A stretch of 41,156 nucleotides of DNA from Clostridia bacterium (GTDB lineage Bacteria; Bacillota; Clostridia; Oscillospirales; UBA644). How positions within the stretch are numbered: position 1 is the stretch's first letter; each line of letters starts with the position of its first letter. The stretch is from NCBI GenBank assembly GCA_017623895.1, contig JAGAOB010000074.1, forward strand, positions 1 through 41,156. The letters run 5' to 3'. The translations under genes and the position numbers were made by a program. The notes under the pieces were generated by a model. That model had not been told where the DNA came from, ran no database searches, and saw nothing but the letters and a program-made list of their open reading frames with translations. Of the stretch, positions 1,542 through 23,000 are shown in pieces.

Positions 1542-2558
1542 TTATTCGTCTTGATCGAATTGCAGCGGAGGAGTTTTATCCTCTTCCTCCATAGGCTGTA
1601 GCAACGGATCGTGGGGGTCGGGATCGGTTGAAAAGGTAAAGATCAGCATATTAAATGCCACCATTGCAACCATAAGGTAAATGCCGAAAGAGGAAAAAAC
1701 CTCTTTCAATGCAATGGAATTGGGGGTGGTTTGAGGATCGGGATCGCGACGGGGATAGAACAGAAAAAAGGCGGCGGCCACACCGAGGACAAGTCCCGAA
1801 AGAATGAGGAAGTTGATATATGCGGTAAATTCTCTGTTTTGTAAAAACACCCACCAAAGGGAGACGATCACTTGACTTGCCGCCTGAAGAACCATACAGC
1901 ACCAAACGGAACGGATACGAAGATAAAACCATCCGAGAAGGAATCCGATGGACAGACGGACGACGATGCCGTAGGGGTCTCCGTCGCTCAATGCGTAGGC
2001 AATGCCCGAAACGAAAACGGCGCCAAGACGGTTTTCTTGTCCCATCGCCCGTATGGCGATTCCGCGGAAGGCAATTTCATAAGAAAAAGAATAAAGAACG
2101 GAAGACAAAATGATATAGAACACCGTTTCCATTCCCGTATTGCCCAACGAGGGAGGTACTACGTTGGTATGAACACCGTTCCCCTCCAAAAAAGACAAAA
2201 GCCAAGCCATTAATCCCATCGATGCCAGCGTTAAGCCCGCCGTTGCCAGGCATCCGAAAATGCAACGCACCACGGGATGCTCAGAGCGGGGCGTTTCTGT
2301 AAAAACGGGGGATAACGGATCGCGACACAGTTTACGGAACACGAGAAAGGGCAAGGCTGTGGCAATCGACTTTGCCAATACCGTGAACGTTGTGGCGATA
2401 TAATAATTGAGATGCGGGGAGACAAGGGATGCCAATCCACCCAAAGCAAAATTCAGAACCCATACGAAGACGGTAACGATAAAAATACCGTTATATACAT
2501 CACGAAGACGCTCGCGGTGAGCGGATTCCTCGATGGTCAATTCCCTTTTCTTTTTCAT
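1542..2558 (-). CDS. CPBP-type membrane protein with degenerate protease motifs
   Basis: A 338-residue polytopic membrane protein resembling the CPBP (CAAX protease/bacteriocin-processing) family. Several hydrophobic segments surround YEIAFRG (160-166), which aligns with the family motif EExxxRG, and a second block resembles the segment with the catalytic histidines. The first Glu is Tyr, and the two usual His positions appear to be Ser191 and Gln225, so proteolysis is doubtful. The C-terminus is acidic and proline-rich. The ATG at 2558 is chosen because an AAAGGTG site and a plausible promoter lie upstream and the longer frame crosses that promoter. It is transcribed away from the phage cassette. 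The fold assignment rests on motif spacing only. Confidence 0.65.
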   Translation of the reverse strand: MKKKRELTIEESAHRERLRDVYNGIFIVTVFVWVLNFALGGLASLVSPHLNYYIATTFTVLAKSIATALPFLVFRKLCRDPLSPVFTETPRSEHPVVRCIFGCLATAGLTLASMGLMAWLLSFLEGNGVHTNVVPPSLGNTGMETVFYIILSSVLYSFSYEIAFRGIAIRAMGQENRLGAVFVSGIAYALSDGDPYGIVVRLSIGFLLGWFYLRIRSVWCCMVLQAASQVIVSLWWVFLQNREFTAYINFLILSGLVLGVAAAFFLFYPRRDPDPQTTPNSIALKEVFSSFGIYLMVAMVAFNMLIFTFSTDPDPHDPLLQPMEEEDKTPPLQFDQDE

Positions 2559-2589
2559 AAATAAACAGCACCTTTCACGATCTGTTATC

Positions 2590-2618
2590 AGTATATCACA
2601 CTTTCCTCCCTTTTGCAA
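2590..2618 (-). promoter_or_regulatory. Probable promoter of the CPBP-like gene
   Basis: TTGCAA (2613-2618) and TATACT (2590-2595) on the minus strand, 17-bp spacer, 31 bp upstream of the start codon. The -35 is weaker than consensus. Confidence 0.6.
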
Positions 2619-2650
2619 GAGGAAAGAAAAAATTCCTACAATTAAGGGGA

Positions 2651-2671
2651 TTTTCCACAGGATTATCCACC
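2651..2671 (+). promoter_or_regulatory. Two DnaA-box-like direct repeats
   Basis: TTTTCCACA (2651-2659) fits the DnaA box TTWTNCACA fully, and TTATCCACC (2663-2671) fits except for the last base. They are 12 bp apart start to start, and GATTTTC follows as a third partial repeat. They lie between the two divergent promoters. This could be a DnaA-responsive regulatory site or chance. Confidence 0.35.
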
Positions 2672-2677
2672 GATTTT

Positions 2678-2691
2678 CGAACGATTGTTCA
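2678..2691 (+). promoter_or_regulatory. LexA-type (SOS) operator candidate
   Basis: CGAACGATTGTTCA matches the Firmicutes LexA/DinR box core GAAC-N4-GTTC, with the flanking C on the left. It lies 34 bp before the -10 of the phage cassette promoter, a fitting place for a repressor. It is also similar to the ArsR-type repeats near 17440, so another repressor is possible. Confidence 0.5.
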
Positions 2692-2722
2692 AAAGTAGAA
2701 ACACGAAATGCAGGAAAAATAT

Positions 2723-2730
2723 GGTACAAT
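2723..2730 (+). promoter_or_regulatory. Extended -10 promoter of the phage cassette
   Basis: TGGTACAAT (from 2722/2723) is an extended -10 element (TGN plus TACAAT, hexamer 2725-2730). No good -35 is visible 17 bp upstream. It is about 100 bp upstream of the first cassette gene and is the only plausible plus-strand promoter before it. Confidence 0.45.
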
Positions 2731-2828
2731 AGAACCACGGTAAGGAACGGAAGCGGCACGGGAGAGAATCAAACGAAGCCCGTCACCCCACTTCCCTACC
2801 GACCGAAATAAGAAAGGAGGGGACGGTT

Positions 2829-3161
2829 CTGAAGGAGTACGGGACGCTGCGAGGGGAAATTGCCAGACTGGCATTGGAATACTTGAAGGACATTCTGAAC
2901 GATAACACTGCGGACTACGGCGACTACCGCGTAGAAGACGGGGAGTTTCGCTTTTGTCCCAGGGACGGGATGCACATTCCCGCCGACCGCGTCAGCGAAT
3001 GGAGTCTGACCAAAAGCGGCGGAGGGAAAATTCGGTTCTTCGATAAAGCGGCTGCCATTGCATTGGCACGCTCCATCGGTGTGTTTGATGCACCTGCGTC
3101 GGAAGAAACGGAGGATCTGAGCGACGAGGCCCTGTTCGGCGGACCTGACGACGAGGTATGA
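2829..3161 (+). CDS. Phage terminase small subunit (probable)
   Basis: A 110-residue protein directly upstream of, and overlapping by four bases (ATGA), the terminase large subunit, the usual position of the DNA-recognising small subunit. The frame has no ATG or GTG. A CTG at 2829 lies eight bases after a strong AAAGGAGG site (2813-2820) and is taken as the start; the next candidate is a TTG at 2874 with no ribosome binding site. The N-terminal part is helical-looking, and the C-terminal quarter is acidic (Glu/Asp-rich). The call rests mainly on position and size. The CTG start is unusual and should be considered tentative. Confidence 0.6.
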   Translation: MKEYGTLRGEIARLALEYLKDILNDNTADYGDYRVEDGEFRFCPRDGMHIPADRVSEWSLTKSGGGKIRFFDKAAAIALARSIGVFDAPASEETEDLSDEALFGGPDDEV

Positions 3162-4483
3162 AAAAACGAAAAACCATTCCTTGGAACTTTTCCGACAAGC
3201 AAAAGCAGTATTTAGAACGATGTGGCACTGCGACCTACAACTTTGCGGAGGGGGCGGTCCGTTCGGGGAAAACCGTTTGCAACATTCTGGCCTTTGCGCG
3301 GGCATTGGAGGACTCTCCCGACAAGCTGCATCTGGCAACGGGGGTAACCATCGCGGCAGCAAAGTTGAATCTTGGAGATTGCAACGGATTCGGATTAGAG
3401 CATCTGTTTCGCGGAAGATGTCGTTGGGGGCGCTATCACGACAATCCCGCCCTATACGTAGAGACCCATCGGGGATTGAAGACGGTGATCTTTGCGGGAG
3501 GAGGAAAATCCGACAGCTACAAGCGCATCCGCGGAAATTCCTACGGTCTTTGGATTGCAACGGAAGTAAATAAGCATCACCTGGCGGACGACGACACCTG
3601 CTTTTTACAGGAAGCCTTTAACCGACAACTGGCGGCAAAGAAACGGCAGATTTTTTGGGATTTCAATCCCGACTATCCCAAGCATCCCGTATATACGAAA
3701 TACGTGGACAAATTTCGCAACGACGGGTTGGATGTAAACTATATGCACTTTACGATTTTTAACAATCCGTCGGTGGGAAGGGATCTGCTGGAAAGCATTT
3801 TACGGCAATACCCCAAAGGGAGCGTGTGGTATCGGCGTTGGATTTTAGGAGAGCGGTGTGCGGCAGAGGGATTAATTTTTCCCGAATTTACCGAGCATCC
3901 CGAGCGATGGATGATCGATACGCCGCCCAAGGACATAGCTTTTGTCACCGTCGGATGTGATTACGGCGGAACGCTGTCCCGAACGGTCTTTACCGCCGTG
4001 GGAATCCGCGAGGAATTTCGAGGGGTATGCGTGCTTGCCTGCAAGAGGCTCACAAAGGGAAAGGGAAAAATTACGCCCAACGATCTGGAACGGGAATTCG
4101 TACAATTCGTATTTGACATCGAACGGAGATTTCGGCTCCGTCCCCGATACGCGTTTATGGATTCGGAGGGGCAATACCTAACGAATGGAATCCGTACGGC
4201 CTGTGCAAGGGCGGGACTGTCCGTGTCGGTGTGCGATTGCAAGAAGGTAACCATAACCGACCGTATTGCCTGCAAAATGCGAATGATGAGCGAGGGCAGA
4301 TGGAGCGTTCTTTCCGATTGCAAGGACGTGATCGCCTCCACGGCGGAATTGGTTTGGGATCCCAACGCCCCCGACCGACGGTTGGACAACGGATCCACCG
4401 ACGTGGACACTGCAGACGCAGAGGAATACGCCTGGTCTTGTTGGCTCAAGCAATTATCTACCCCTCCGAAAGAAAAGAGGTAA
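3158..4483 (+). CDS. Phage terminase large subunit (PBSX-type)
   Basis: A 441-residue packaging motor that translocates DNA into the procapsid and cuts it. The N-terminal ATPase has a Walker A at 31-39 (EGAVRSGKT), a Walker-B-like segment ending in WIATEV near 132-137, and a coupling-motif region WDFNPDYPKHPVY at 166-178. The C-terminal RNase-H-like nuclease shows candidate metal ligands Asp267 (GCDYGG), Asp334 (MDSEGQ) and Asp414/Asp416. The length is normal for the family and no lesion is seen. It starts inside the stop of the small subunit gene and is followed three bases later by the portal gene. Confidence 0.93.
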   Translation: MKKRKTIPWNFSDKQKQYLERCGTATYNFAEGAVRSGKTVCNILAFARALEDSPDKLHLATGVTIAAAKLNLGDCNGFGLEHLFRGRCRWGRYHDNPALYVETHRGLKTVIFAGGGKSDSYKRIRGNSYGLWIATEVNKHHLADDDTCFLQEAFNRQLAAKKRQIFWDFNPDYPKHPVYTKYVDKFRNDGLDVNYMHFTIFNNPSVGRDLLESILRQYPKGSVWYRRWILGERCAAEGLIFPEFTEHPERWMIDTPPKDIAFVTVGCDYGGTLSRTVFTAVGIREEFRGVCVLACKRLTKGKGKITPNDLEREFVQFVFDIERRFRLRPRYAFMDSEGQYLTNGIRTACARAGLSVSVCDCKKVTITDRIACKMRMMSEGRWSVLSDCKDVIASTAELVWDPNAPDRRLDNGSTDVDTADAEEYAWSCWLKQLSTPPKEKR

Positions 4484-4486
4484 CGA

Positions 4487-5893
4487 ATGGAAACCATACT
4501 TTCCTATCTGAAAAATCGCTTCGGATACGACAATATCGATCGAAATTTCTATCGGAAGATCGACGAATGGGATCGCTGGTACTCGGGAAACGGTACGGAT
4601 TTTCACCGTACGAGGGTAAACAACGGACTTTCGGTCATCGAACACGATTTAAGTCAGATGAACATGGCAAAGAAGATTGCCGAGGATTGGGCAAATCTTC
4701 TGATGAACGAAAAAACCCGCATCGATACCGATGACGATGGGGCATCGGAATTTTTACGGGGAAAGAACGGCAAGGGCGGCGTTTTGGGAGAAAACGATTT
4801 CTGGACGGGAATCAATCAGCTGGTAGAACGCTCCTTTGCTCTCGGAACGGGAGCGGTAGTGCTCCGTCTGGAAAACGCACGGGTGGACGGGAACGACACG
4901 CTCCTCCCCTCCCTGGACGGAAAAATTCGTCTGGAATACGTCACCGCCCAAAATATCATTCCCCTGTCCTGGCAAGGGCAGACCGTCACAGAGGCCGCCT
5001 TTGCGGGCAGTATGACGGTGGCGGGACAGTCCCTGACCTATTTGCAGATCCACCGAAAGGAGGGGGACGGCTACGTCATCGACAGCGTTTGCTTTTCCGA
5101 TAAAACGGGAAAGAAGGTCCCTCTTCCCGAAGGAATCTGCGCGACATTACGAACCAAAAGCAAAACCCCCTGGTTCGTTCTTATTAAGCCCAACATCGTC
5201 AATAATCTGACCAATCTGCCGATGGGAATTTCCGTTTACGCAAATTCCATTGACATTCTTAAGGGGTTGGATCTTTGTTACGACAGCTTCCATATGGAAT
5301 TCTATCTGGGCAAGAAAATGGTCTTTTTGCGCAAGGATCTGATGATGCAGGATCAAGAGGGACGGATCTACGCTCCCCAGGACTGCAACCGTCAGCTGTT
5401 TATGTACATTGGGGATAAAAACGTAGACGGAGACCTGCTTCCCCAAGAATTCAACCCCGCATTACGGGTCGAAGACCACACGCAGGCAATTCAGCAGCAT
5501 CTGAATTATCTTTCCTGCAAATGTGGATTCGGAGACCGATACTACCGCTTCAACGGAGATTTCACTCCTTCCACGGCGACGGAAGTAATTTCGGCGGACG
5601 CTGCCCTTTATCGCTCGGTGCGCAAGCACGAAATTCTTTTGGAACAGCCCCTGGTACGGTTGATGGAAACGATCCTCAAAATCGGAAAAGAAATCTTGGG
5701 AATTTCCATCAGAGATTCCGCTTCGGTTTCGGTCCGGTTTGACGACAGCATTATCGAGGACCGCACCGCAGAGCAAAAGCGGGATATGGAGCTGGTCTCT
5801 ATGGGATTGATGCTGGATTGGGAATTTCGTATGAAGTATTACGGCGAGGGAGAAGAAACCGCCCGTAATCGGTGCAAGGAGGGATCGCGTTGA
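4487..5893 (+). CDS. Phage portal protein
   Basis: A 468-residue protein of portal length, placed directly after the terminase large subunit. Portals form the dodecameric DNA channel at the capsid vertex, bind the terminase and nucleate capsid assembly. The sequence has the mixed charged/aromatic N-terminus and a C-terminal helical, acidic stretch common in SPP1-like portals. The gene is intact and codon use resembles its neighbours. No separate minor head protein gene (SPP1 gp7 type) follows, which is a departure from many phages of this layout. The assignment is based on size, order and general resemblance. Confidence 0.85.
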   Translation: METILSYLKNRFGYDNIDRNFYRKIDEWDRWYSGNGTDFHRTRVNNGLSVIEHDLSQMNMAKKIAEDWANLLMNEKTRIDTDDDGASEFLRGKNGKGGVLGENDFWTGINQLVERSFALGTGAVVLRLENARVDGNDTLLPSLDGKIRLEYVTAQNIIPLSWQGQTVTEAAFAGSMTVAGQSLTYLQIHRKEGDGYVIDSVCFSDKTGKKVPLPEGICATLRTKSKTPWFVLIKPNIVNNLTNLPMGISVYANSIDILKGLDLCYDSFHMEFYLGKKMVFLRKDLMMQDQEGRIYAPQDCNRQLFMYIGDKNVDGDLLPQEFNPALRVEDHTQAIQQHLNYLSCKCGFGDRYYRFNGDFTPSTATEVISADAALYRSVRKHEILLEQPLVRLMETILKIGKEILGISIRDSASVSVRFDDSIIEDRTAEQKRDMELVSMGLMLDWEFRMKYYGEGEETARNRCKEGSR

Positions 5894-5937
5894 GCGGAGA
5901 ATCAAACAAATTTGAACCGACGTCGGGAGGGATCTCG

Positions 5938-6342
5938 ATGAACGATGAAGCGAAAAAAACCGCGCCAATGTCTCTAGAGGAATTGTCGGCGTTATTGCCC
6001 GAGGGATACGCTTTGGTGGAAAAGGACGGCTGGATCCCTCGGGAGCAGGCAGAAGAACAGCTGCGTGCCTTGTCCTTTGACCGTCAGATCGATCTGGAGT
6101 TGACCCGTTGCGGAGCAAAAAGCCTGACGGCGGCACGGGCGTTGTTGGATCTGAACCAATTAAAAGAAAACCCCGACGGGGTTGCCTCGGCCGTGGGAAA
6201 GATCCGCAAAGAAAACGATTGGCTCTTTCAAAGAGAATCTACCTTTTCCAGCGGTGCCGTGCTGACACCGCGAAGAACGGTGGACACCGAAACTATGTCC
6301 GATGCGGAGTATTATGCGTATCGGAAACAAATGAAAGGATAA
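5938..6342 (+). CDS. Capsid scaffolding protein (probable)
   Basis: A 134-residue, charged, largely helical protein between portal and coat genes, the usual place for the scaffold that templates procapsid assembly. The ATG at 5938 has GGGAGG seven bases upstream. A second possible start is a TTG at 5890 that overlaps the portal stop and has its own AAGGAGGG site; the two initiation regions look like near copies of each other. The longer form would be 150 residues. No protease gene is present, so the scaffold would leave the capsid uncleaved, as in P22-type assembly. Confidence 0.65.
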   Translation: MNDEAKKTAPMSLEELSALLPEGYALVEKDGWIPREQAEEQLRALSFDRQIDLELTRCGAKSLTAARALLDLNQLKENPDGVASAVGKIRKENDWLFQRESTFSSGAVLTPRRTVDTETMSDAEYYAYRKQMKG

Positions 6343-6351
6343 AAAGGAATT

Positions 6352-7434
6352 ATGAATAATTTTTTGACGACCAAAACCATTGCAAGAGAGGCCCTGCCCA
6401 TTCTGGAATCCAATCTGGTCTTTCCTGCGTTGATTCACAAGGATTTTTCCGATGACTTTTCCAAGCAGGGAGACACCATTCAAGTGCGCAAGCCTCCCGT
6501 TTACAACGCAACGGAATTCGACGGAGAAATCGACATTCAGGACATCAAAGAAGGAGAAGTGCTGGTAAAGCTGGACAAGATTGCCGACGTTTCCGTCGAG
6601 CTGACCGCCAAGGAAATGGCGTTAAACGCCGAGGATTTCACCAAGCAGGTCATCGAGCCCGCGATGGTTGCTATCGCGGAAAAGATCAATGCGGACGGAC
6701 TTTCTCTTTATAAGGACGTTCCTTATTTCTACGGGGAACCCGGCGTCGAGCCCTCCTCCCTTACCGACCTTGCGGGTGGGGCTAAGATCCTGAACGACCA
6801 CAAGGCTCCCCTGGTCGGGAGAAGCGGCGTTTGGAGCACCGACGCCATCGCAAATTTCCAAGTTCTTCCCGCCCTTGTCAATGCGGAAAAATGCGGCTCT
6901 ACCGAGGCGCTGCGGGAGGGTTCCATCGGCCGTGTCTTTGGGGTGGATCACTACTTCTCCCAGCAAACTCCCGTTCATTCCAACCAAAACGAGCCGAAGG
7001 GCGAAATGATGATCTACGGTCGCGACGCTCAAGGCAGGGGATTTATCAGCGGGGAGGAAGGAACCTTCTGCAAGGGTGATATGCTGAAGATCGGGGACAA
7101 GCTTTTCACCGTGATGGAGGACGTAGAATTCTACGATAACGACTGCCAGGTAAAGCTTTTCCCTGCTCTCGTACAAGAAGATATGGACAAGAAAGTGACT
7201 TACCTGGGGACGCACACGGCAAACCTTATGTTCCACAAGAGCGCCTTCGGGTTTGTAACCCGTCCTCTGGAGCCCGCCCGCGGAGCAGACAGCTACGTCA
7301 CCTCGTACAACGGTCTTTCCGTGCGGGTCACGATGGACTATAACATTGCAACTAAGAAGCAAACCCTCTCCATCGACACCCTTTACGGATTCAAGACGCT
7401 GTACCCCGAATTGGCCGTACGTGTTCTCGGCTAA
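6352..7434 (+). CDS. Major capsid protein, P22 coat-like
   Basis: A 360-residue protein resembling the P22 gene-5-type coat family (HK97 fold with an extra domain). The N-terminus (FLTTKTIAREALPILESNL) and the following stretch on a sharply alternating beta-rich pattern match that family as found in Firmicutes phages. It would form the icosahedral shell. It is intact and full-length and sits ten bases after the scaffold gene. A short hairpin follows it. High-level expression would be expected from its role, but no separate promoter is visible. Confidence 0.85.
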   Translation: MNNFLTTKTIAREALPILESNLVFPALIHKDFSDDFSKQGDTIQVRKPPVYNATEFDGEIDIQDIKEGEVLVKLDKIADVSVELTAKEMALNAEDFTKQVIEPAMVAIAEKINADGLSLYKDVPYFYGEPGVEPSSLTDLAGGAKILNDHKAPLVGRSGVWSTDAIANFQVLPALVNAEKCGSTEALREGSIGRVFGVDHYFSQQTPVHSNQNEPKGEMMIYGRDAQGRGFISGEEGTFCKGDMLKIGDKLFTVMEDVEFYDNDCQVKLFPALVQEDMDKKVTYLGTHTANLMFHKSAFGFVTRPLEPARGADSYVTSYNGLSVRVTMDYNIATKKQTLSIDTLYGFKTLYPELAVRVLG

Positions 7435-7455
7435 ACAGAGCTACAAAACCGTATT

Positions 7456-7483
7456 CCGTGCCTCTCCTGCGAGGGAGGCACGG
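7456..7483 (+). other. Stem-loop after the coat protein gene
   Basis: CCGTGCCTC (7456-7464) pairs with GAGGCACGG (7475-7483). There is no T run, so it is not a classic terminator. It may stabilise or process the coat protein mRNA, or lower downstream expression. The next gene's ribosome binding site follows at about 7490. Confidence 0.5.
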
Positions 7484-7500
7484 AGGGATAGGAGGGGAAT

Positions 7501-7857
7501 ATGGAAGCTATTACAAAAGCAGATTTTGACTTGAACTATTCGACGGACCCGATCGACGACAAAGAGTTTGCAATTCTTGCCCAGCTTGCCCTGGACCTAA
7601 CCGACCTTCTTTGCTTTGGCAGGACGGATCGGAACGAAGCCTCCGCACGCCGTGCGATGGAAGAAATGATCCGATATTGGATCGAGCACGGAGGGGTATC
7701 TGCCGTCGGCGGTCAGCAAAACCCGAACAGCGAGCGGGTGGGGAATTATTCCATCACCCATCGGGATGAACCGCAAATTACCCTGCGGGGTGTGACGGTC
7801 TCCCCCGCGGCGCTGGTTATTTTGGACCGTGCGGGGCTTCGCAACTGCAACCTGTAA
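7501..7857 (+). CDS. Head-tail connector protein (probable)
   Basis: A 118-residue, mainly helical protein directly after the coat gene, where phages encode the gp6/gp15-like adaptor that docks under the portal. Helical N-terminal two thirds and a short C-terminal tail fit that family. AGGAGGGG lies a few bases before the ATG. Intact; no lesions. The assignment is by position, size and composition. Confidence 0.6.
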   Translation: MEAITKADFDLNYSTDPIDDKEFAILAQLALDLTDLLCFGRTDRNEASARRAMEEMIRYWIEHGGVSAVGGQQNPNSERVGNYSITHRDEPQITLRGVTVSPAALVILDRAGLRNCNL

Positions 7858-7869
7858 GGGAGGGGCGAT

Positions 7870-8235
7870 ATGACAGTTACACTTTTCAACCGTATGGGAG
7901 AAGACACCCAAGGGACGGGACTCTACAAGCCCTACGTGTTCCGCAACGTATATATTGAAACGAAAAATGCGGCCAATCCCGTCTATTCAGGGGAGCGGAA
8001 CAACGACAATTTTCGGCTTTATCTGTTTACGAACCAAGGGTATCTTCCCAAAGAAGAATTTTTGGTATCCCCCACAAACCACTGGACCCTGGAGCCGGGA
8101 GATCTTTTAGCGTTGGGGATTCATCAAGAGATTCCTCCATCTCCCTTTCGTATCAATACCATTAACGTATTTTACGCAAGAGATCAATTTCATCATTGGG
8201 AGGTGAGCGGTCGTGGAATCCTGTTGGAATCGTGA
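7870..8235 (+). CDS. Phage head-completion or minor capsid protein (hypothetical)
   Basis: A 121-residue beta-rich protein with many aromatic residues. I do not recognise the family with certainty. It follows the connector gene and precedes the tail-terminator-like gene, the slot used by head-closure (stopper) proteins. GGGAGGGG precedes the ATG. Its 3' end overlaps the next gene by 23 bases. Confidence 0.5.
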   Translation: MTVTLFNRMGEDTQGTGLYKPYVFRNVYIETKNAANPVYSGERNNDNFRLYLFTNQGYLPKEEFLVSPTNHWTLEPGDLLALGIHQEIPPSPFRINTINVFYARDQFHHWEVSGRGILLES

Positions 8236-8662
8236 TTATCGGGACATTATTATTCGCTTTTTATCTCCCGTAACGGGAGACATTGCAACGGAATACCTCT
8301 CCAATACCGACAGGAGCGTTGCCATCGAAGAGCTGCGGGGGGAACCGAATCTGATCAGCTTTATCGACGGAAGCAGAATTTCCCGCTATGATTTCAATCT
8401 TTACGTCCGTACCAACGGACGGGATACCGCAGCCCGAAAAAAAGCGATGGACACCCTTATGGCGGCGGCAAATCGGTGCGCAGCACAGCGTCCCTTTGCG
8501 GGCGCCTATGTGGAGATAACCGAATTTCCTTATTTATTCAACCGAAATATGTCGGGGAATGAAGAATATAAGGCGGGATTTTCGATGTTCTTTCGCAGCG
8601 AAGCGTCCGGCAATCCCCTGACACCCCCCATTATGTCAACGTCGGAGGAGGAAGGTCTATGA
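8213..8662 (+). CDS. Tail terminator-like phage protein (probable)
   Basis: A 149-residue protein. The GTG start at 8213 follows a GGGAGGTG site, so it begins inside the preceding gene. The pattern of a helical start, a central beta region and a C-terminal alternating segment resembles the small tail-terminator/minor capsid proteins encoded just before the tail tube gene. It would cap the tail and join it to the head. Its stop overlaps the next ATG (ATGA), indicating translational coupling. Confidence 0.5.
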   Translation: MESCWNRDYRDIIIRFLSPVTGDIATEYLSNTDRSVAIEELRGEPNLISFIDGSRISRYDFNLYVRTNGRDTAARKKAMDTLMAAANRCAAQRPFAGAYVEITEFPYLFNRNMSGNEEYKAGFSMFFRSEASGNPLTPPIMSTSEEEGL

Positions 8663-9114
8663 TTAAAAAAAGTGACGATCGGGTTTGGGTCTACAGCAGC
8701 GTGGCAAAAAAGTATTACCTGTTAGGGGCAGGGATCACCCACTTAGAGGAGGTTTATAAAACCGCTCTTTTGGAGACCCCCAACATCTACTCTCCCCTTT
8801 GCAAACGAGAAATTTTGTATCATACGGGACAGCTGGAATTTGAAGGGATTCAAACCGATGATCCTGCGTTGGTCCTGCTACGGTCCTTTCGGATGAAGCG
8901 AGGAAACGACGCTCTGATCACAATCATCGTGGCAAACCGAAACGACGTTCTCAACGGAACCTTTCTTAAGGCACGCCGAATCAACGGATACGTTTGTCTG
9001 GAAAACGTGGGAACGGGAGAAGGTATTTTCGGATCCAAAATCAAAGGAAAAATTGTTTACGCTGACGCTCCCGAGGAAGGAATTTTCGATGAAGACAGTC
9101 AAGCATTCGGTTGA
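8659..9114 (+). CDS. Major tail (tube) protein (probable)
   Basis: A 151-residue beta-rich protein in the tail-tube slot, after the terminator-like protein and before the Gp15-type protein. Tail tube proteins of long-tailed phages have this size and composition. It is translationally coupled at the start (ATGA overlap) and overlaps the next gene by 26 bases. Its presence suggests that the particle has, or once had, a tubular tail, although no tape-measure gene follows. Confidence 0.55.
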   Translation: MIKKSDDRVWVYSSVAKKYYLLGAGITHLEEVYKTALLETPNIYSPLCKREILYHTGQLEFEGIQTDDPALVLLRSFRMKRGNDALITIIVANRNDVLNGTFLKARRINGYVCLENVGTGEGIFGSKIKGKIVYADAPEEGIFDEDSQAFG

Positions 9115-9505
9115 CGCTTTGCTTCTGCCGAAAACCGTTTCCGTGGACGGAAGAAGCTACCCCATCCGTTGGGATTTTTCTGCGGCACTGCAATTTATGG
9201 AGTACGTGGACATGTCGGAGGATGAGGACGAGGTTTTTCTGCACAAGGTTTTGGAGATCTGGTATCCTCAGATCCCCGACAACTCCGACGAGGCGTTGAC
9301 CCAAGCCGTTCGTTTTTATTGCGGAGGGAATCTACCGCAGGAGGGATACTATGCACCGATCTTTCCTGTACAAGAAGATCGAACGGGAATATATCAATTT
9401 TTTCTAAACCATTACGGTATAAATTTGAAACAAGATTGCGTGCATTGGTGGGTATTTCGCCAATTGCTGGAGCAGTATCAAAACGGGAGGAATCAATGGA
9501 ATTAA
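9089..9505 (+). CDS. Bacteriophage Gp15-type protein, C-terminally shortened
   Basis: A 138-residue protein resembling the Gp15 family of Firmicutes phages, which sits between tail tube and tape measure and probably acts as a tape-measure chaperone. The typical LP-x-VxVDGRxYPI opening and the late motif HWWxFRxLL are visible. The usual C-terminal extension after that motif (roughly 50 residues in family members I know) is missing; the protein ends about 15 residues after it. The ATG at 9089 has GAGGAAGG eight bases upstream; a longer frame lacks a site. It overlaps the next small gene by ten bases. Confidence 0.65.
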   Translation: MKTVKHSVDALLLPKTVSVDGRSYPIRWDFSAALQFMEYVDMSEDEDEVFLHKVLEIWYPQIPDNSDEALTQAVRFYCGGNLPQEGYYAPIFPVQEDRTGIYQFFLNHYGINLKQDCVHWWVFRQLLEQYQNGRNQWN

Positions 9506-9648
9506 ATCAATCAAATCCCTTGGAAACAGAAGGATTAGAGGAGCAGATTCTGGTTTTTCGTCGTCCGGATCCCAAGGATGAAACCGACCGCATCGGAAAA
9601 GAAATTGTCCGCAGAATGATTGAAGCAGGGGTGGTGGAGCCAAAATGA
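9496..9648 (+). CDS. Small protein of the phage cassette, unknown function
   Basis: A 50-residue charged protein. GGGAGG lies five bases before the ATG at 9496, and its stop overlaps the next start (ATGA), so it is very likely translated. It sits exactly where a tape-measure gene of well over 1.5 kb would normally be. The sequence shows alternating acidic and basic residues and a C-terminal helix; it could be a residual chaperone piece or a new minor tail component. Not recognised. Confidence 0.6.
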   Translation: MELNQSNPLETEGLEEQILVFRRPDPKDETDRIGKEIVRRMIEAGVVEPK

Positions 9649-10694
9649 CATTGACCATCGGAGGATTTACCCATACCGAAGCGTTGCAGGAGGGATCGTT
9701 GGTCATTCGATCCTACGGAGCGTTGCGCTCGTCCTTTCGGGCAACGCTGAGTTTTTCCACCGTTCCCCGTTTTCTTCCAAAGGTAGGCCAAGAGATTCTT
9801 CTTTCCGAAGACGACACCCTTATTTGGGGAGGGATCCTTGTGGAGGTGGAGCAGGTCTGCCATAGCACGAAAAGCTTTACAATGACCCTGCGCGGGCAGG
9901 GGTACGAGCAGATTTTACAACGCTTTTGCCTCCCCGCAATCTACCTCCCCGGATTTACGCCGTCGCGAGCCGTCGAAACCATTTTTCGGACCTATCTCAA
10001 CCCCGAGGATGGATTGACGCTCGGTATCGTGGAGGAAGGATTGACCAAATCGTGCTCCTACGTTTTTTATCCTGCAAAGGCCTCGTCGGTATTCGATCGA
10101 CTTGCAAACGAGAATGGGTTCGTTTGGTGGGTGGACAAAGAGAAGCTCTTCCATATGCGAGCTCTGCTCCCGCGAATTGAAGCGGACCTGTGCATTGATC
10201 TGACCGAAAAAAAGGACAATCGACTCAAGGATATTCAGACGTTTGTCTATCGGTCCTCCACCGCGGATTACAGAAACGTACAGTACGTCTACAACCGCGG
10301 GCTCGACGTAATCGGAAATTATATCCACGTGGACCGTCTGATGGAGATGTCCGAACGGTACGGAAGCGGCGCCTACGGAGCCTCCTCGGAAAGCACTGCG
10401 GTGACCCATCAAACCGAAGCGCAGTCCGTAGGAGAGCAGATTTTGGCGGGGAGCTGCGGAGAGGGAGAAATTGAATTCACCACCGACAGCGACAAATTCT
10501 CCCTTGGACAAATGGTGGGAGTTACCGCCCCCGTTTGCGGGATCGAAACCGAAACGCAATTCTGCGTCACGGAGATCCGCGCCGTGTATTTTCTTAACCG
10601 CTTCCGCTATACCGTCACTGCAAAGCAAACCGATACGGGGCCCTTGTCCATAGCGTCGTGGGAACGGGTTTTAGCCGGAGGCACAACAAATTAA
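9645..10694 (+). CDS. Tail hub / baseplate-like protein
   Basis: A 349-residue protein resembling central tail hub proteins (T4 gp27 / late-control D-like fold). An N-terminal beta domain with the sequence style of phage hub proteins, including a segment of the type RSSFRATLSFSTV, is followed by a mid region and a second barrel-like domain near the C-terminus. It would close the tail tip. No tail-fibre or receptor-binding gene follows; the next gene is a cell-wall-active protein. Intact and translationally coupled to the gene before it. Confidence 0.6.
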   Translation: MTLTIGGFTHTEALQEGSLVIRSYGALRSSFRATLSFSTVPRFLPKVGQEILLSEDDTLIWGGILVEVEQVCHSTKSFTMTLRGQGYEQILQRFCLPAIYLPGFTPSRAVETIFRTYLNPEDGLTLGIVEEGLTKSCSYVFYPAKASSVFDRLANENGFVWWVDKEKLFHMRALLPRIEADLCIDLTEKKDNRLKDIQTFVYRSSTADYRNVQYVYNRGLDVIGNYIHVDRLMEMSERYGSGAYGASSESTAVTHQTEAQSVGEQILAGSCGEGEIEFTTDSDKFSLGQMVGVTAPVCGIETETQFCVTEIRAVYFLNRFRYTVTAKQTDTGPLSIASWERVLAGGTTN

Positions 10695-10713
10695 ATCGAG
10701 GAAACCAACAACT

Positions 10714-11289
10714 ATGATTATAAAGCAATATCTTCCCTTTCGGGTTTCCCGTGAGGGGTATATTCCGGATCGACTGCATCTGAAATTCTTTGAAGGAAAC
10801 GCAGAAGAATGTCTTGAGCAGCTTTCTCGGAGACAAAAATCCGCCCATTACCACGTGGCAGTCGACGGTACGGTGACGGCCCTGTCTCCCCTTTCGGCGG
10901 CGGCAACCGTTTTGTCTTCCTTATGGGAGGGCGAAGCGGAGGACGAGGTCTCTGCGGCACGGCGGGGGATTTTGATTTTGATTGAAAGCAACGGCCGTGC
11001 CCTTTCCGAAGCACAAGCCGAGCCCTTGTTTCGCCTCTTGAAATCGATTCAAAAGCAGATCATACGCATTTACGGAGAGCCCTTTTCCTTTTGCCGCGAA
11101 GCGCTTTTCTGTGAGGAAGGGATGTCTGCCGTGGACCTGCTGGAGCAGGGGTATCTTCCTTGGGATGACCGTAGAGTTTTTCGGGTACAAACGGGGACCT
11201 ATCGCAGCCGTCGGGAGGCAGAGGACCACGTTCAGCGTCTGCAACGGGCAGGAATCGCCGCGTACGTTACGGAGGTGAAGATCGTATGA
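10714..11289 (+). CDS. Amidase-like protein with C-terminal SPOR domain
   Basis: A 191-residue protein. The N-terminal part resembles an Amidase_2 fold (RLHLKFFEG near 21-29, SAHYHVAVDGTV at 43-54), but the usual late His/Cys zinc ligands are not clearly conserved, so activity is uncertain. Residues about 155-190 form a SPOR domain (FRVQTGTY, ending in a second beta strand), which binds denuded peptidoglycan glycan strands. There is no signal peptide. Together with the holins and endolysin it forms a lysis group. The ribosome binding site is weak (GAGG). It could be a wall-binding helper instead of a lysin. Confidence 0.65.
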   Translation: MIIKQYLPFRVSREGYIPDRLHLKFFEGNAEECLEQLSRRQKSAHYHVAVDGTVTALSPLSAAATVLSSLWEGEAEDEVSAARRGILILIESNGRALSEAQAEPLFRLLKSIQKQIIRIYGEPFSFCREALFCEEGMSAVDLLEQGYLPWDDRRVFRVQTGTYRSRREAEDHVQRLQRAGIAAYVTEVKIV

Positions 11290-11561
11290 TGCAAGCAACG
11301 CTTTGGGAAACCATCATCACCGCAGCGGCGGTGGTCAGCGGACTTACCATTCTGGGGACCGCGGCGGTAAAAATCGTGCGCTTCTGGTTGGATCAAAAGA
11401 ATCAGGATCGGGAGATCGACCACGTCAAAACCGAGATGGGGGTTATCTGCTACGGAGTGCTTGCCTGTTTGGACGGATTGAAGCAGATGGGCTGTGATGG
11501 AAACGTAACGCAGGCAAAAAACGATTTGGAAAAATATCTGAACAAAACGGCACATCAATAG
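11286..11561 (+). CDS. Holin-like membrane protein
   Basis: A 91-residue protein with one clear hydrophobic segment (about 8-30) followed by a charged helical tail ending in a stretch typical of small phage proteins next to lysins in Clostridia (KxDLEKYLNKxAHQ). It overlaps the preceding gene by four bases. Together with the next gene it may form a two-component holin, or act as an antiholin. The role is inferred from topology and position. Confidence 0.65.
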   Translation: MMQATLWETIITAAAVVSGLTILGTAAVKIVRFWLDQKNQDREIDHVKTEMGVICYGVLACLDGLKQMGCDGNVTQAKNDLEKYLNKTAHQ

Positions 11562-11576
11562 AAAGGAGAACAAGTT

Positions 11577-11792
11577 ATGACAGAATGGCTTTATCGGGCA
11601 TTACGAACCTTTGGCCAGGCAATGCTGGGATACTTGGCGGCAAATCTTTTGGCCGTCATCACCCAAACCGACGTAAGCGATCCCACAGGTTTTGCCAATA
11701 CCCTGTTGGGACTGTTCGCCGCCGCAGTTGCGGCAGGACTCGCCGCAGTAATGAACCGCGGAAAAAAGGAGGAGCCTACCGATGACGAATAA
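11577..11792 (+). CDS. Holin (probable)
   Basis: A 71-residue protein with two predicted membrane segments (about 12-30 and 37-58) joined by a short loop and ending in a charged tail, as in r1t-type holins. AAAGGAG lies a few bases before the ATG. It overlaps the endolysin gene by 11 bases, the common holin-lysin arrangement. It would let the lysin reach the cell wall. Confidence 0.7.
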   Translation: MTEWLYRALRTFGQAMLGYLAANLLAVITQTDVSDPTGFANTLLGLFAAAVAAGLAAVMNRGKKEEPTDDE

Positions 11793-12543
11793 AGAATTTG
11801 CGGCAAAGCTTTTAGACGTGGCACTCAATCACGCAACGGTCTATATGATGGGAACCTTTGGCGCTCCCGTCAGCGAATCGCTCATCGTTCAAAAGGCAAA
11901 GCAATATCCCAAATATTATTCCGCAGGACGGCAACGCCTTTTGCGGGGAAAGATTCCCGACGCACCCTGGGCCTTCGACTGCGTGGGGCTGATCAAAGGA
12001 ATCCTTTGGGGATGGTCGGCAGACCGTTCCAAATCCTTCGGAGGAGGAAAATACCGATCCAATCAAGTTCCCGATATCAGTGCAAACACGATGGCAAGCC
12101 GTTGCTTGGAACGGACGGAATCGATGGATAAAATTCTGGTCGGTGAAGCAGTCTATATGAACGGACACATCGGAATCTACGTCGGAGACGGCAAGGTGGT
12201 GGAATCCACGTTGATCGGAAAATACGACGGCGTAGTCGTAACCGACCTCACCTTCCGCAACTGGCTGGGACACGGGAAACTGCCCTGGATCACCTACGAA
12301 ACGGATACAGCGCCCGAATCGGAACAAATCGCACCCGCCGTGCCCAAGGTGGGAGACGTAGTCTTATTTTCGGGAGGAAAGCACTACGTATCGTCCAACG
12401 GAAGCTTGGGGTACAAGGCAAAGGCGGGGCCTGCAAAGGTAACTCACTATTTGCCGAACCGAAAGCATCCTTATCATTTGATCCACACGGACAAGACCTC
12501 CAACGTCTACGGTTGGGTCGATGCTGACACCGTTTCAAAATAA
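11782..12543 (+). CDS. Endolysin, NlpC/P60 (CHAP-like) peptidase with wall-binding C-terminus
   Basis: A 253-residue lysin. The N-terminal cysteine peptidase has the nucleophile Cys67 in FDCVG and a probable catalytic His129 in NGHIGIYVGDG. The last 70 residues form a C-terminal domain seen in other clostridial phage lysins (GDVVLF, HYxSSN, PYHLIH, VYGWVD), probably wall binding. AGGAGG precedes the ATG. No signal peptide, so export depends on the holin. It is the last gene of the cassette and is followed directly by a terminator. Confidence 0.85.
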   Translation: MTNKEFAAKLLDVALNHATVYMMGTFGAPVSESLIVQKAKQYPKYYSAGRQRLLRGKIPDAPWAFDCVGLIKGILWGWSADRSKSFGGGKYRSNQVPDISANTMASRCLERTESMDKILVGEAVYMNGHIGIYVGDGKVVESTLIGKYDGVVVTDLTFRNWLGHGKLPWITYETDTAPESEQIAPAVPKVGDVVLFSGGKHYVSSNGSLGYKAKAGPAKVTHYLPNRKHPYHLIHTDKTSNVYGWVDADTVSK

Positions 12544-12548
12544 AACAA

Positions 12549-12583
12549 CCGCAGAGGCTCTACGTGAGCTTCTGCGGCTTTTC
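12549..12583 (+). terminator. Terminator of the phage cassette
   Basis: A 12-bp stem (12549-12560 with 12566-12577, one G-T pair) followed by CTTTTCTT, six bases after the endolysin stop. It marks the right boundary of the cassette. Confidence 0.85.
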
Positions 12584-12612
12584 TTGACAAAGAGAGAAAA
12601 AAGGGGTATAAT
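12584..12612 (+). promoter_or_regulatory. Consensus sigma-A promoter of the metallopeptidase gene
   Basis: TTGACA (12584-12589) and TATAAT (12607-12612) with a 17-bp spacer. The -35 directly abuts the T run of the preceding terminator. Confidence 0.9.
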
Positions 12613-12634: not shown

Positions 12635-13144
12635 ATGGAATACGTTCTGATTCGGTCCAAGCGCAGGACGGTATCGTTGGAGGTCAAGCCCGACCTTCGG
12701 GTAATCCTTCGTGCGCCCGTCGGGATGCCCAAAGGGGAAATTGAAAAATTTCTTGCCCAGCATCAGCAATGGCTTTCGGAGGCGTTGGAACGGACGGAAC
12801 AGCGAAAAATCCGAGACGACGCCCTGCAGCTTCGGGAAGAGGAGCTTCGCACGCAAGCGCAACGATATCTTCCCCAACGGACGGCACATTGGGCGGGAAT
12901 TATGGGGGTCTGCCCTGCAGGGGTTCGTATTACGTCGGCAAAAACCCGCTTCGGATCCTGTAGCGGAAGCAATCGCATCTGCTATTCTTGGAGATTGATG
13001 GCGTATCCAAACGAAGCCATTGACTACGTCATCGTTCACGAGCTGGCCCATATTTTGCAAAAAAACCACTCGCCAAGGTTTTACGCCGTCGTACAGCGGT
13101 TTCTTCCCGATTGGAAGGCCCGCCGCGCCTTATTAAAAAAATAA
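12635..13144 (+). CDS. YgjP-type M48 family metallopeptidase (SprT-like)
   Basis: A 169-residue zinc metallopeptidase of the YgjP/DUF45 family. The signature HELAH is within VIVHELAHILQKNHSPRF near the C-terminus (about 132-150), with a third ligand His expected in NHSPRF. The N-terminal part contains the family pattern of a strand pair (RRTVSLEV, RVILRAPVG). Its substrate is unknown. GAGGGGG ends shortly before the ATG at 12635. It has its own promoter and terminator and is not part of the phage cassette, despite lying directly beside it. Confidence 0.85.
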   Translation: MEYVLIRSKRRTVSLEVKPDLRVILRAPVGMPKGEIEKFLAQHQQWLSEALERTEQRKIRDDALQLREEELRTQAQRYLPQRTAHWAGIMGVCPAGVRITSAKTRFGSCSGSNRICYSWRLMAYPNEAIDYVIVHELAHILQKNHSPRFYAVVQRFLPDWKARRALLKK

Positions 13145-20054: not shown

Positions 20055-23000
20055 TTATTTCTTGAAATAATTCACGGCAGATTGGAATAGGTGCATATCG
20101 TATTCGCCTGCGACGTTACGATACAAGCCGTTCCCGATACGCTCCGAGTGTCCCATCTTCCCCAAGACCCGTCCGTCGGGAGAGGTAATTCCTTCCACGG
20201 AAAGGATGGAACCGTTGGGATTGAAGGACGTATCCAGCGTGGGATTGCCGTTCAGATCTACGTACTGAGTGGCGATCTGGCCGTTTTGTGCCAGCTTAAG
20301 GATCAGATCCTCCGAAGCAAGGAAGCGGCCTTCACCGTGGGAAATGGGAACGGTATAGATCTGGCCAACCTCGGTGCCTGCAAGCCAGGGAGATTTGTTG
20401 GTGCACACCCGCGTGCGAACCAGCTTGGATTGATGGCGTCCGATGGTGTTGTAGGTCAGGGTGGGGCAAGATTCATCAGTATCAATGATTTTACCGTAGG
20501 GAACCAAGCCCAATTTGATAAGTGCCTGAAATCCGTTACAAATTCCCAGCATCAACCCGTCGCGATCGTCCAACAATTTTCCGACCTGCTCCTTGACGGC
20601 AGGATTGCGGAAGAACGCGGTGATAAACTTGGCGGAGCCATCGGGCTCGTCACCGCCGGAGAATCCGCCGGGAAGGAAGACCATTTGGCTTTCCGCGAGC
20701 TTTTGGGAAACCGCTTCTACGCTGCGGGCCACGTCGTCTGCCGTGAGATTGCGGATCACCACGATCTCGGCATCGGCGCCCGCCGCCTGCATAGCGCGGG
20801 CAGAATCGTATTCACAGTTGGTTCCGGGGAATACGGGGATCAACACCTTGGGACGGGCGCATTTTACAGCGGGAGAAGCAACGCAGCCGTCGGTGTAGGA
20901 AAAGACGGCAAGACTGCTTTCTGCAGGCGCCTTGGTGGGATAAACGCTTTCCAGAACCCCTTCGTTGAGGGCAAGCAATTCAGAAATGGAAGCCTGTTCG
21001 CTTCCCAGATCGACCACGGGGCTTTCGGTGGTCTGACCGATGAGAAGGGCATATTCATTCTCGATCGCTTCGTCCAATTCCGCAATGATAAAGTCGTACA
21101 TCATTCCGCCGTACCATTCGGTCACGGCACCGTTGGACACAAAGCCGATCTCGTTGCCGAAGGACATCTTCATAATGCCCTCTGCAATTCCGTTTTCCAC
21201 CGCCCAAGCCGCCTTGACCTTTCCTGCCTTGCAGAAGGAATGGAAGGAATCCCAAGCTTGCTTTGTGGATTCTGCCGTTTGATCCTTCGGAGCAAAGAGG
21301 TATACGGGATGTCCCGCTTCTTTGAATTCGGGCGAAATGACGTCACCCGCATTTACGGGAGCGATGGCAAAGGAGATCAGCGTGGGCGGAACGTCCAGAT
21401 CCAGGAAGGTGCCGGACATCGAGTCCTTTCCGCCGATCGCCGCAACATTCAGCTCCAGCTGGGCATCCATTGCACCCAACAGTGCGGCAAAGGGTTTCCC
21501 CCAACGGGTGGGCTCATTGCGAAGCTTTTCAAAAAATTCCTGAAGCGTAAGATACGCATCCTTGTAATCCGCCCCTGCGGCAACGATCTTTGCCATAGAA
21601 TTATACACGGAGGCACGGGCGCCGGTATAAGGATCAACGCACATCGTGTCAGGATCCAAGCCCCACGCCATAACACTGGCAGAATCGGTGGTCTGATCGG
21701 GCAGAACGGGCAACAGCGCCGCCATCGCCTGAGCAGGGGTTCTTTGGGTCTTTCCTCCGAAGGGCATCAATACGGAGCCTGCACCGATGGAGCCGTCAAA
21801 GCGCTCCACCAAGCCACGGCGGGAGGCGGTCTTCAGATCCGATGCCATTTGGCGAAGATCGGAATACAGCGCCTTGGAAAAGATGGAAAGATCCTTTTCG
21901 GTGACTTCAACCACGGTGTGCTTGTCCGCACCGTTGGTGTTCAAAAATTCACGGGAAAGGTTTGCGATGGTCTGTCCTTTCCAATTCATAACCATACGTG
22001 CCTCTTCGGTCACCACCGCAACACGGTAGGCTTCCAGATTCTCGGCTTGGGCATAGGCGATAAAGGTGTCGGCATCGTTGGCGTCGACGACCACGGCCAT
22101 ACGCTCTTGGGATTCGGAGATGGCAAGCTCGGTTCCGTCCAAGCCGTCGTACTTCTTGCGCACGGCGTCCAGATCGATCTGAAGACCATCTGCAAGCTCG
22201 CCGATGGCAACCGATACGCCGCCTGCACCGAAGTCGTTACAGCGCTTGATCAGACGGGTCACGCGGGCATCGCGGAACAGGCGTTGAATTTTGCGCTCCT
22301 CGGGGGCGTTCCCCTTTTGGACCTCGGAGGCCATCGTGGTGAGGGATTTCATATTGTGGCTCTTGGAAGAACCCGTAGCACCGCCGATTCCGTCACGACC
22401 GGTGCGGCCTCCCAAAAGAATGATCACGTCTCCTGCTTCAGGGCGCTCCCGACGTACGTTATAAGCGGGAGCCGCGGCAACCACGGCACCACATTCCAGA
22501 CGCTTTGCCACGTAGCCGTCGTGATAGACCTCTGCCACGTGTCCCGTTGCCAGGCCGATCTGATTGCCGTAAGAAGAATACCCTGCGGCAGCGGTTTGGC
22601 AGATCTTACGCTGGGGAAGCTTTCCTGCAACGGTGTCCGCCAAGGAGGTTCTGGGATCGCCAGCTCCCGTCACCCGCATTGCTTGATGGACGTACGCCCG
22701 TCCCGACAAGGGATCGCGGATACAGCCGCCGATACAGGTGGCCGCACCGCCGAAGGGCTCGATCTCCGTGGGGTGGTTGTGGGTTTCGTTCTTGAACATC
22801 AACAGCCAATCCTGGTCTTCCCCGTTGACCTTGGCGGTCACGTGGATCGAGCAGGCGTTGATCTCTTCGCTTTCGTCCAATTCGGGGAGTGCGCCCCGCT
22901 TTTTCAAGGTCTTGACGGCGATGGTAGCAATATCCATCAGAGTTTGAGGACGCTTTGCCACCTTTTCTTCTCCGTACACCTCTACGCGGGCGGCAAGATA

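Follow-up and report, generated by a model that had tools for sequence, protein, structure and literature searches.

The 41,156-nucleotide stretch analyzed here, hereafter the window, is contig JAGAOB010000074.1 of a Clostridia bacterium (assembly GCA_017623895.1). It carries a phage-derived operon of 16 genes that we regard as a strong gene-transfer-agent candidate; such agents are particles that move random pieces of the cell's own DNA. Occupying 9.7 kb on the plus strand (window 2829–12543), this cassette (g1 to g16, Table 1) encodes a small terminase (TerS), a large terminase (TerL), a portal, a scaffold, a P22-type coat, three connector proteins, a tail tube, Gp15, a protein of 50 amino acids (aa), a hub, an amidase-SPOR protein, two holin-like proteins, and an NlpC lysin. 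Domestication of the cassette by its host appears well supported by comparison with related genomes. With modest confidence, we further propose, as the best explanation, that a siphophage head–tail–lysis module was captured by an ancestor common to several genera of the host family and kept by the host as a gene transfer agent that packages random DNA. We regard as the most informative single result a TerS that appears to lack a sequence-specific DNA-binding domain. The gene-transfer-agent reading is supported by this lack in the TerS family, and the gene content bears the expected genome signature, since the genes that build and fill heads have been kept, and the domain for recognition of the element's own DNA and the genes for integration and replication have been lost. 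An earlier note on this stretch, made without database searches, had suggested a gene transfer agent-like particle; domestication, selection, and the loss of the TerS N terminus speak for that suggestion, and the absence of a tape measure adds no support to it.

A host-kept cassette at a fixed site

The window is contig C107 of a 1.5-Mb assembly that is 81% complete (genome G000). Its named relatives are Clostridia metagenome-assembled genomes, the labeled ones from cattle gut and water-deer gut. The window's genus is represented by five genomes including its own, and an IMG/VR contig, L160, provides a sixth case. As the earlier note had described, the 16 genes are intact and tightly packed, with every frame open, and they lie between ordinary chromosomal genes. 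Most of them have profile or fold identities, and the flanking genes are CAAX protease-like on the left and YgjP-like on the right. The note's view that the operon has its own promoter and terminator also stands: a conserved promoter block (2651–2730) marks the upstream edge and a terminator (12549–12585) the downstream edge. Its details of extent required correction, to 2829–12543, as did two start codons. The start codon of g1 is a conserved CTG at 2829, not TTG 2874 (five of six genomes have CTG here and the sixth has TTG), and Gp15 begins at ATG 9089.

An open reading frame (ORF) survey limited to the window and the surroundings of the cassette found no integrase, repressor, or replication gene, and a repeat search found no convincing attachment repeats flanking the cassette. 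Both results agree with the earlier reading of the window, as does the absence of a tape measure gene from it. No tRNA lies within 2 kb of the cassette.

Each of the five genus genomes has all 16 genes, collinear and open, beside the CAAX gene, and in four of them YgjP forms the opposite flank. No frameshift or stop occurs in the 16 genes across these genomes, and between the window and its closest relative, G003, the approximate ratio of nonsynonymous to synonymous change (omega) is 0.04–0.19 in every gene. Thus, all 16 genes are under purifying selection. The earlier note had proposed exactly this comparison of site and per-gene omega as a check. Among other genera, a related cassette lies between a GH18-like gene and acetate kinase in most genomes of genus g2, and YgjP has no match in genus g4.

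Vertical descent was assessed against an rpoB host tree. The portal tree shares 10 of 11 splits with it, the coat tree 8 of 11, and the TerL tree, computed on 13 taxa, 8 of 10; by comparison, no more than four common splits arose in 2000 label permutations of 14-taxon trees. Disagreements fall mostly inside the window's genus, where rpoB support is modest. The cassette gene trees appear, then, largely to follow the host, which points to long vertical inheritance under purifying selection. The earlier claim that the cell keeps the cassette is borne out by its single copy, its single site in the genus, the host-like trees in other genera, and selection on every gene.

Of 59 genomes, 17 carry the coat gene, the window's own among them, and each has a single copy. 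Its carriers are all five genus members, 9 of 10 genomes of genus g2, one each of genera g3 and g7, and G051, a 34% outlier of another family whose coat gene lies on a contig that resembles an ordinary prophage and includes a gene of tape-measure size. The cassette itself is present as a single copy in 16 genomes from four genera of the family, the copies outside the window's genus being reduced relatives. Across 295 genomes of the order, TerL identity is 80–89% within the genus, falls to 57–60% from genus to genus in the family, and does not exceed 46% outside it. The nearest outside TerL, in G195, belongs to an ordinary siphophage-like prophage with a 904-aa tape-measure-sized gene. The only close IMG/VR match is L160, and a search of viral contigs with the hub gave no match. 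Since L160 (1–8457) keeps the genus order of g1 to g12 next to the CAAX flank, it is a chromosomal fragment of the window's genus that has been filed as a virus.

A small terminase without a recognizable DNA-binding region

Phage small terminases carry a helix-turn-helix in their N-terminal part (PMC6854486). In those relatives of the cassette whose small terminase can be recognized, this DNA-binding region is missing, and only the C-terminal Terminase_2 part is present. The orthologues from genera g2, g7, and g3 cover PF03592 (Terminase_2) only from positions 54–58 to 135–137 of 141, with E-values of 1.5e-10, 8e-9, and 6e-5, respectively, the last being below the curated cut-off; they also match phrog_2606 and phrog_51. 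The g1 protein of the window has no significant profile match by itself, and that of the window's genus, too divergent for a Pfam match, can be aligned along its length with these orthologues. The short stretch upstream of g1 in the window encodes no replacement for the missing N terminus, and a PDB sequence search with the TerS profile returned no useful match. Known gene transfer agents show the same TerS trait according to a 2024 review (see also Sherlock et al.).

The remaining packaging genes, the P22-like capsid with its scaffold, and the head-completion genes of the earlier description were recovered by Pfam and PHROG profile matches. The minor head protein, whose place would be between portal and scaffold, is missing from the cassette. 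In genera g3 and g7 there is no scaffold gene between portal and coat, and a scaffold-like ORF follows the hub (L023 10089–10421, reverse complement; L025 7743–7988); the scaffold gene has apparently moved in these genera.

Tail, lysis, and wall-binding genes

The tail tube and hub proposed earlier are confirmed by the predicted folds of g9 and g12; the g12 model has a predicted local distance difference test (pLDDT) score of 73, with residues 206–272 poorly modeled. Tube-to-hub gaps, measured in 15 genomes, range from −4 to 563 nt. They are −4 to +137 nt in 10 genomes of other genera and 530–563 nt in the window's genus, where the gap is occupied by Gp15 and the 50-aa gene. No cassette copy of the family has a tape measure gene between tube and hub. 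The earlier note had advised screening other contigs for this gene, and two tape-measure families were searched genome-wide (PF20155 and PF10145, the only families included): PF20155 has no match in any of the 16 genomes, and the sole match to PF10145 lies in a separate, unlinked prophage of G011. A tape measure encoded elsewhere in the genome was accordingly rejected on the search of these two families. Besides its cassette, genome G011 holds an ordinary contractile-tail prophage with a 1358-aa tape measure (L065), so members of this family host normal phages.

Listeria phage A500 and the gut phage MT835524 both have, after the tube, a chaperone, Gp15, a tape measure (1788 and 755 aa), a distal tail protein (Dit), and then the hub. 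The cassette, compared with these two, has neither a tape measure nor Dit between Gp15 and hub, and it contains no sheath gene. Because no tape measure sets tail length by the known mechanism, the tail would be a stub in which the hub closes off a single tube ring or a few. At the gene level, it is neither the full tail that a tape measure gene marks in the structural cluster of RcGTA-like agents nor the complete tail able to adsorb and kill of a PBSX-type particle. The earlier note had taken the missing tape measure as a pointer to a gene transfer agent. The loss is real and family-wide, and it departs from the known agents, which are tailed. We also considered g11 as a tape-measure remnant; this is unlikely, since its likely homologue in genus g2 adjoins the adaptor gene, directly after it. 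The tail-tube-like protein of G006 (L023 7835–8833, reverse complement) has a low-complexity C-terminal extension of ∼190 residues.

Downstream of the hub, g13 has lost two putative zinc-ligand positions in the window's genus that relatives in other genera keep; because of this loss, its product probably binds the wall rather than cutting it. The lysin, g16, retains its catalytic motifs, DC-GL and GH. Three of the five genus genomes (G001, G002, and G004) carry, between g13 and g14, a BppU_N gene and a 360- to 380-aa DUF6273 gene, whose products we read as putative receptor-binding parts. Neither gene occurs at this place in the window or G003, and no BppU was found elsewhere in their available sequence. 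The earlier statement that there is no fiber or receptor-binding protein thus holds for the window and G003 and fails for the other three, in which these genes lie inside the operon; the missing fiber is a lineage-specific state, not a design feature. DUF6273, which also ends the putative receptor-binding protein of the window's genus, appears in genus g2 in one or two membrane-anchored proteins after the cassette (L027 13096–14836; L031 13095–13952, reverse complement).

Weighing the explanations

If the cassette is a gene transfer agent, an ancestor shared by several genera of an uncultured gut Clostridia family would have acquired a head–tail–lysis module of A118/A500 order. Since then, the genes for integration, replication, and control would have been lost, along with the minor head protein, Dit, the tape measure, and the part of TerS that recognizes DNA. 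The conserved promoter would fire in few cells, in which portal, scaffold, and coat would build a procapsid. A TerS/TerL motor with no sequence-specific start would load any host DNA until the head is full, and the vertex would be closed into a stub tail by the connectors, the hub, and a tube of one ring or a few. Particles would leave through the action of the holins and the NlpC lysin, and they might bind the wall of kin by the SPOR module, or by the BppU and receptor-binding proteins where these are present.

Several points weigh against this scheme. The particle, its DNA content, and its transfer are predictions from gene content, and known gene transfer agents possess tails. The presence of Gp15 without a tape measure is odd. 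The identity of TerS in the window's genus rests on its alignment to orthologues of genera g2, g3, and g7, and most genus g2 genomes have no lysis genes beside the cassette. Family genera g4, g5, and g6 lack the cassette, so losses or a later capture must be assumed. The site is fixed within a genus or genus subgroup and differs between genera; therefore, movement of the element or rearrangement of the chromosome must have taken place, if only at an early stage. Finally, synonymous sites are partly saturated (dS >1 in most genes), which makes omega approximate, although changes at third codon positions far above those at first and second positions, and the lack of any broken frame, are both independent of saturation.

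Vertical inheritance and selection would look identical if the cassette were a domesticated PBSX-like particle that kills or antagonizes relatives, containing random DNA or none and paying its way through lysis and a wall-binding stub tail. The lysis genes, the SPOR module, and the BppU and receptor-binding genes of the genus suit such a role, as does the weak match of TerL to the PBSX terminase family. However, a killer particle would keep its tail and could drop packaging, whereas this cassette has a reduced tail and packaging genes that rank with its most conserved ones; moreover, receptor-binding genes are missing in two of five genomes. We therefore consider this explanation unlikely, if worth keeping in view. 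The complete head and packaging genes, reduced tail, and small size would also suit a capsid-forming satellite that borrows tails from helper phages, as do capsid-forming phage-inducible chromosomal islands (PICIs). This we judge improbable: the window has no integrase, repressor, replication gene, or attachment repeats, the site is fixed in the genus and the trees are largely host-like, the cassette has its own tube, hub, holins, and lysin, and its small terminase is without the recognition domain that a satellite would need.

The differing sites between genera could instead mean that an undescribed phage lineage, by nature without a tape measure, has integrated several times and recently. 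The largely host-like trees and the absence of integration and replication genes make this similarly improbable. In addition, the best free-phage TerL matches reach only 46%, the one with a long contig being an ordinary siphophage with a tape measure, and the sole close viral record is the chromosomal fragment with the CAAX flank. We are equally skeptical of a chromosomal empty capsid or nanocompartment that serves storage or as a decoy and transfers no DNA. It would account for the reduced tail and for the conservation of coat and scaffold, but terminase, portal, and connectors are under strong selection and would be needless for an empty shell. Least credible of all is a slowly decaying prophage remnant. 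Several ancestral genes have indeed been lost relative to A500 and MT835524, yet the uninterrupted frames in five genomes, the low omega values, and the conserved promoter are not what decay would leave.

Relation to known systems

Profile matches and predicted folds place a phage-derived head–tail structural cluster in the chromosome, and in this the cassette resembles RcGTA, the gene transfer agent of Rhodobacter capsulatus, and its relatives, as it does in vertical inheritance, purifying selection, the lack of integrase and replication genes, and a small terminase without a detectable N-terminal DNA-binding domain (a comparison at the level of features). It differs from RcGTA in having no tape measure or distal tail genes, a P22-type coat, lysis genes in the same operon, a Clostridia host, and a different promoter block. 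Compared with Bartonella BaGTA, Desulfovibrio Dd1, Brachyspira VSH-1, and Methanococcus VTA, it is of another lineage and has other genes.

The order TerS, TerL, portal, scaffold, coat, connectors, tube, Gp15, (tape measure), hub, and lysis genes is that of the A118/A500 Listeria phages and of gut siphophages such as MT835524, and the likeness to A118-type phages extends to the portal, Gp15, and the hub fold of Listeria gp18. In contrast to these phages, the cassette lacks the TerS DNA-binding region, the minor head protein, the tape measure, Dit, and the integrase and replication genes; modules for integration, lysogeny, and replication are absent around it. PBSX of Bacillus subtilis is likewise domesticated and present in one copy, and TerL is weakly similar to TIGR01547. 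PBSX retains a full contractile tail and a tape measure, whereas the cassette's tail would be a stub. Capsid-forming PICIs share with it head and packaging genes and an incomplete tail. Unlike them, it has a fixed site, its own lysis genes, and a hub, and no integrase, regulators, or replication genes stand beside its head genes in the window.

According to the 2024 review, the hosts of known gene transfer agents are Alphaproteobacteria, one spirochaete, one sulfate reducer, and one archaeon. The review also poses the questions of how frequent such agents are in other lineages and by which sequence traits they can be told from prophages. We found no published gene transfer agent in Clostridia in a literature search that left out most subscription journals. 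The cassette provides a concrete candidate in ruminant gut Clostridia and an independent occurrence of the loss of the TerS DNA-binding region. It also raises a new mechanical question, namely how a particle with a tube and hub and no tape measure would deliver DNA. If the gene-transfer-agent reading is true, genes would be exchanged within a dense gut community by a vertically inherited route, and the cassette would be counted as a prophage by annotation pipelines, as it already is in one IMG/VR record.

Control region and catalog of features

A block of ∼90 bp upstream of the cassette is conserved in six genomes and consists of two TTWTCCAC repeats, a palindrome, and an extended −10 promoter, with the CTG start coming next. 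Across 1.1 Mb of scanned loci, the paired repeat TTTTCCACAGGATTATCCAC is unique to the cassette promoter, where it stands beside the LexA-like palindrome (2651–2690); DnaA may bind there. The palindrome CGAACGATTGTTC resembles the Gram-positive LexA box. It is missing, though, from recA and lexA in these genomes and shows no genome-wide enrichment; LexA/SOS control is thus no more than a possibility. A more specific proposal, which we offer tentatively, is a Clostridia gene transfer agent, possibly the first in Bacillota, with a P22-type head, a tube-hub stub, a recognition-less TerS, and a DnaA-box-like and SOS-like promoter that could tie release to stalled replication or DNA damage.

Table 1. 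Features of the cassette, its control region, and its flanks (window coordinates)
Feature	Position	Strand	Evidence and remarks
Left flank, CAAX protease-like host gene	1542..2558	−	PF02517; left edge in 5/5 genus genomes and L160
Tandem repeat TTTTCCACAGGATTATCCAC, two DnaA-box-like sites	2651..2670	+	Same place in 6 genus members
Palindrome CGAACGATTGTTC, putative operator	2678..2690	+	CGAAC-N4-GTTY in 5/6 genomes, relaxed in L160
Extended −10 promoter TATGGTACAAT	2720..2730	+	GGAAAAATATGGTAMAATA conserved in 6 genomes
g1 small terminase, gene-transfer-agent type	2829..3161	+	CTG start; aligned to orthologues of genera g2, g3, g7
g2 large terminase (TerL)	3158..4483	+	phrog_2 E 4e-29; weak TIGR01547 PBSX-family match
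g3 portal, SPP1/A118 type	4487..5893	+	PF05133 E 8e-14; phrog_533 E 8e-92; TIGR01542
g4 scaffold	5938..6342	+	PF06810 (Phage_scaffold) E 2e-7
g5 P22-type coat	6352..7434	+	PF11651 (P22_CoatProtein) E 1e-42; phrog_283 E 1e-78
g6 head-tail adaptor	7501..7857	+	phrog_541 E 1e-13
g7 connector protein	7870..8235	+	phrog_3366 (unknown function) E 9e-12; role from position
g8 tail completion protein	8213..8662	+	phrog_3266 E 1e-5
g9 tail tube	8659..9114	+	AlphaFold2 mean pLDDT 85; top Foldseek matches: tail tubes of monocin, 80alpha, NF5; no profile match
g10 Gp15 tail chaperone	9089..9505	+	PF06854 (Phage_Gp15) E 1e-16; window's genus only
g11 50-aa conserved protein	9496..9648	+	Open in 5 genomes; omega 0.19
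g12 baseplate hub	9645..10694	+	Foldseek E 1e-15 to MuSo2 43-kDa tail protein; also Mu gp44, T4 gp27, Listeria gp18
g13 degenerate Amidase_2 + SPOR	10714..11289	+	PF05036 (SPOR, E 2e-4) and PF01510
g14 holin-like membrane protein	11289..11561	+	One hydrophobic segment; 80–94% identity in genus
g15 holin-like membrane protein	11577..11792	+	phrog_4316 (unknown function) E 8e-5; hydrophobic segments
g16 NlpC/P60 endolysin, C-terminal phrog_20388 domain	11782..12543	+	PF00877 E 9e-6; phrog_20388 E 1e-19
Intrinsic terminator	12549..12585	+	12-bp hairpin and U tract; minimum free energy z-score −7.2; strong
Right flank, YgjP-like metallopeptidase host gene	12635..13144	+	PF01863; right edge in G000–G003

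Two minor observations concern the surroundings. Beside the genus g3 cassette, at the contig end, lies a serine-recombinase-like ORF (L023 11737–12636, reverse complement), which may be an unrelated mobile element. In the window, purL (20058–23744) was dropped as a host marker in favor of rpoB because G001 and G004 carry a different purL: the gene is 86–88% identical among the window, G002, and G003, and the copy in G001 and G004 is only 62% identical, which suggests that purL has been replaced within the genus.

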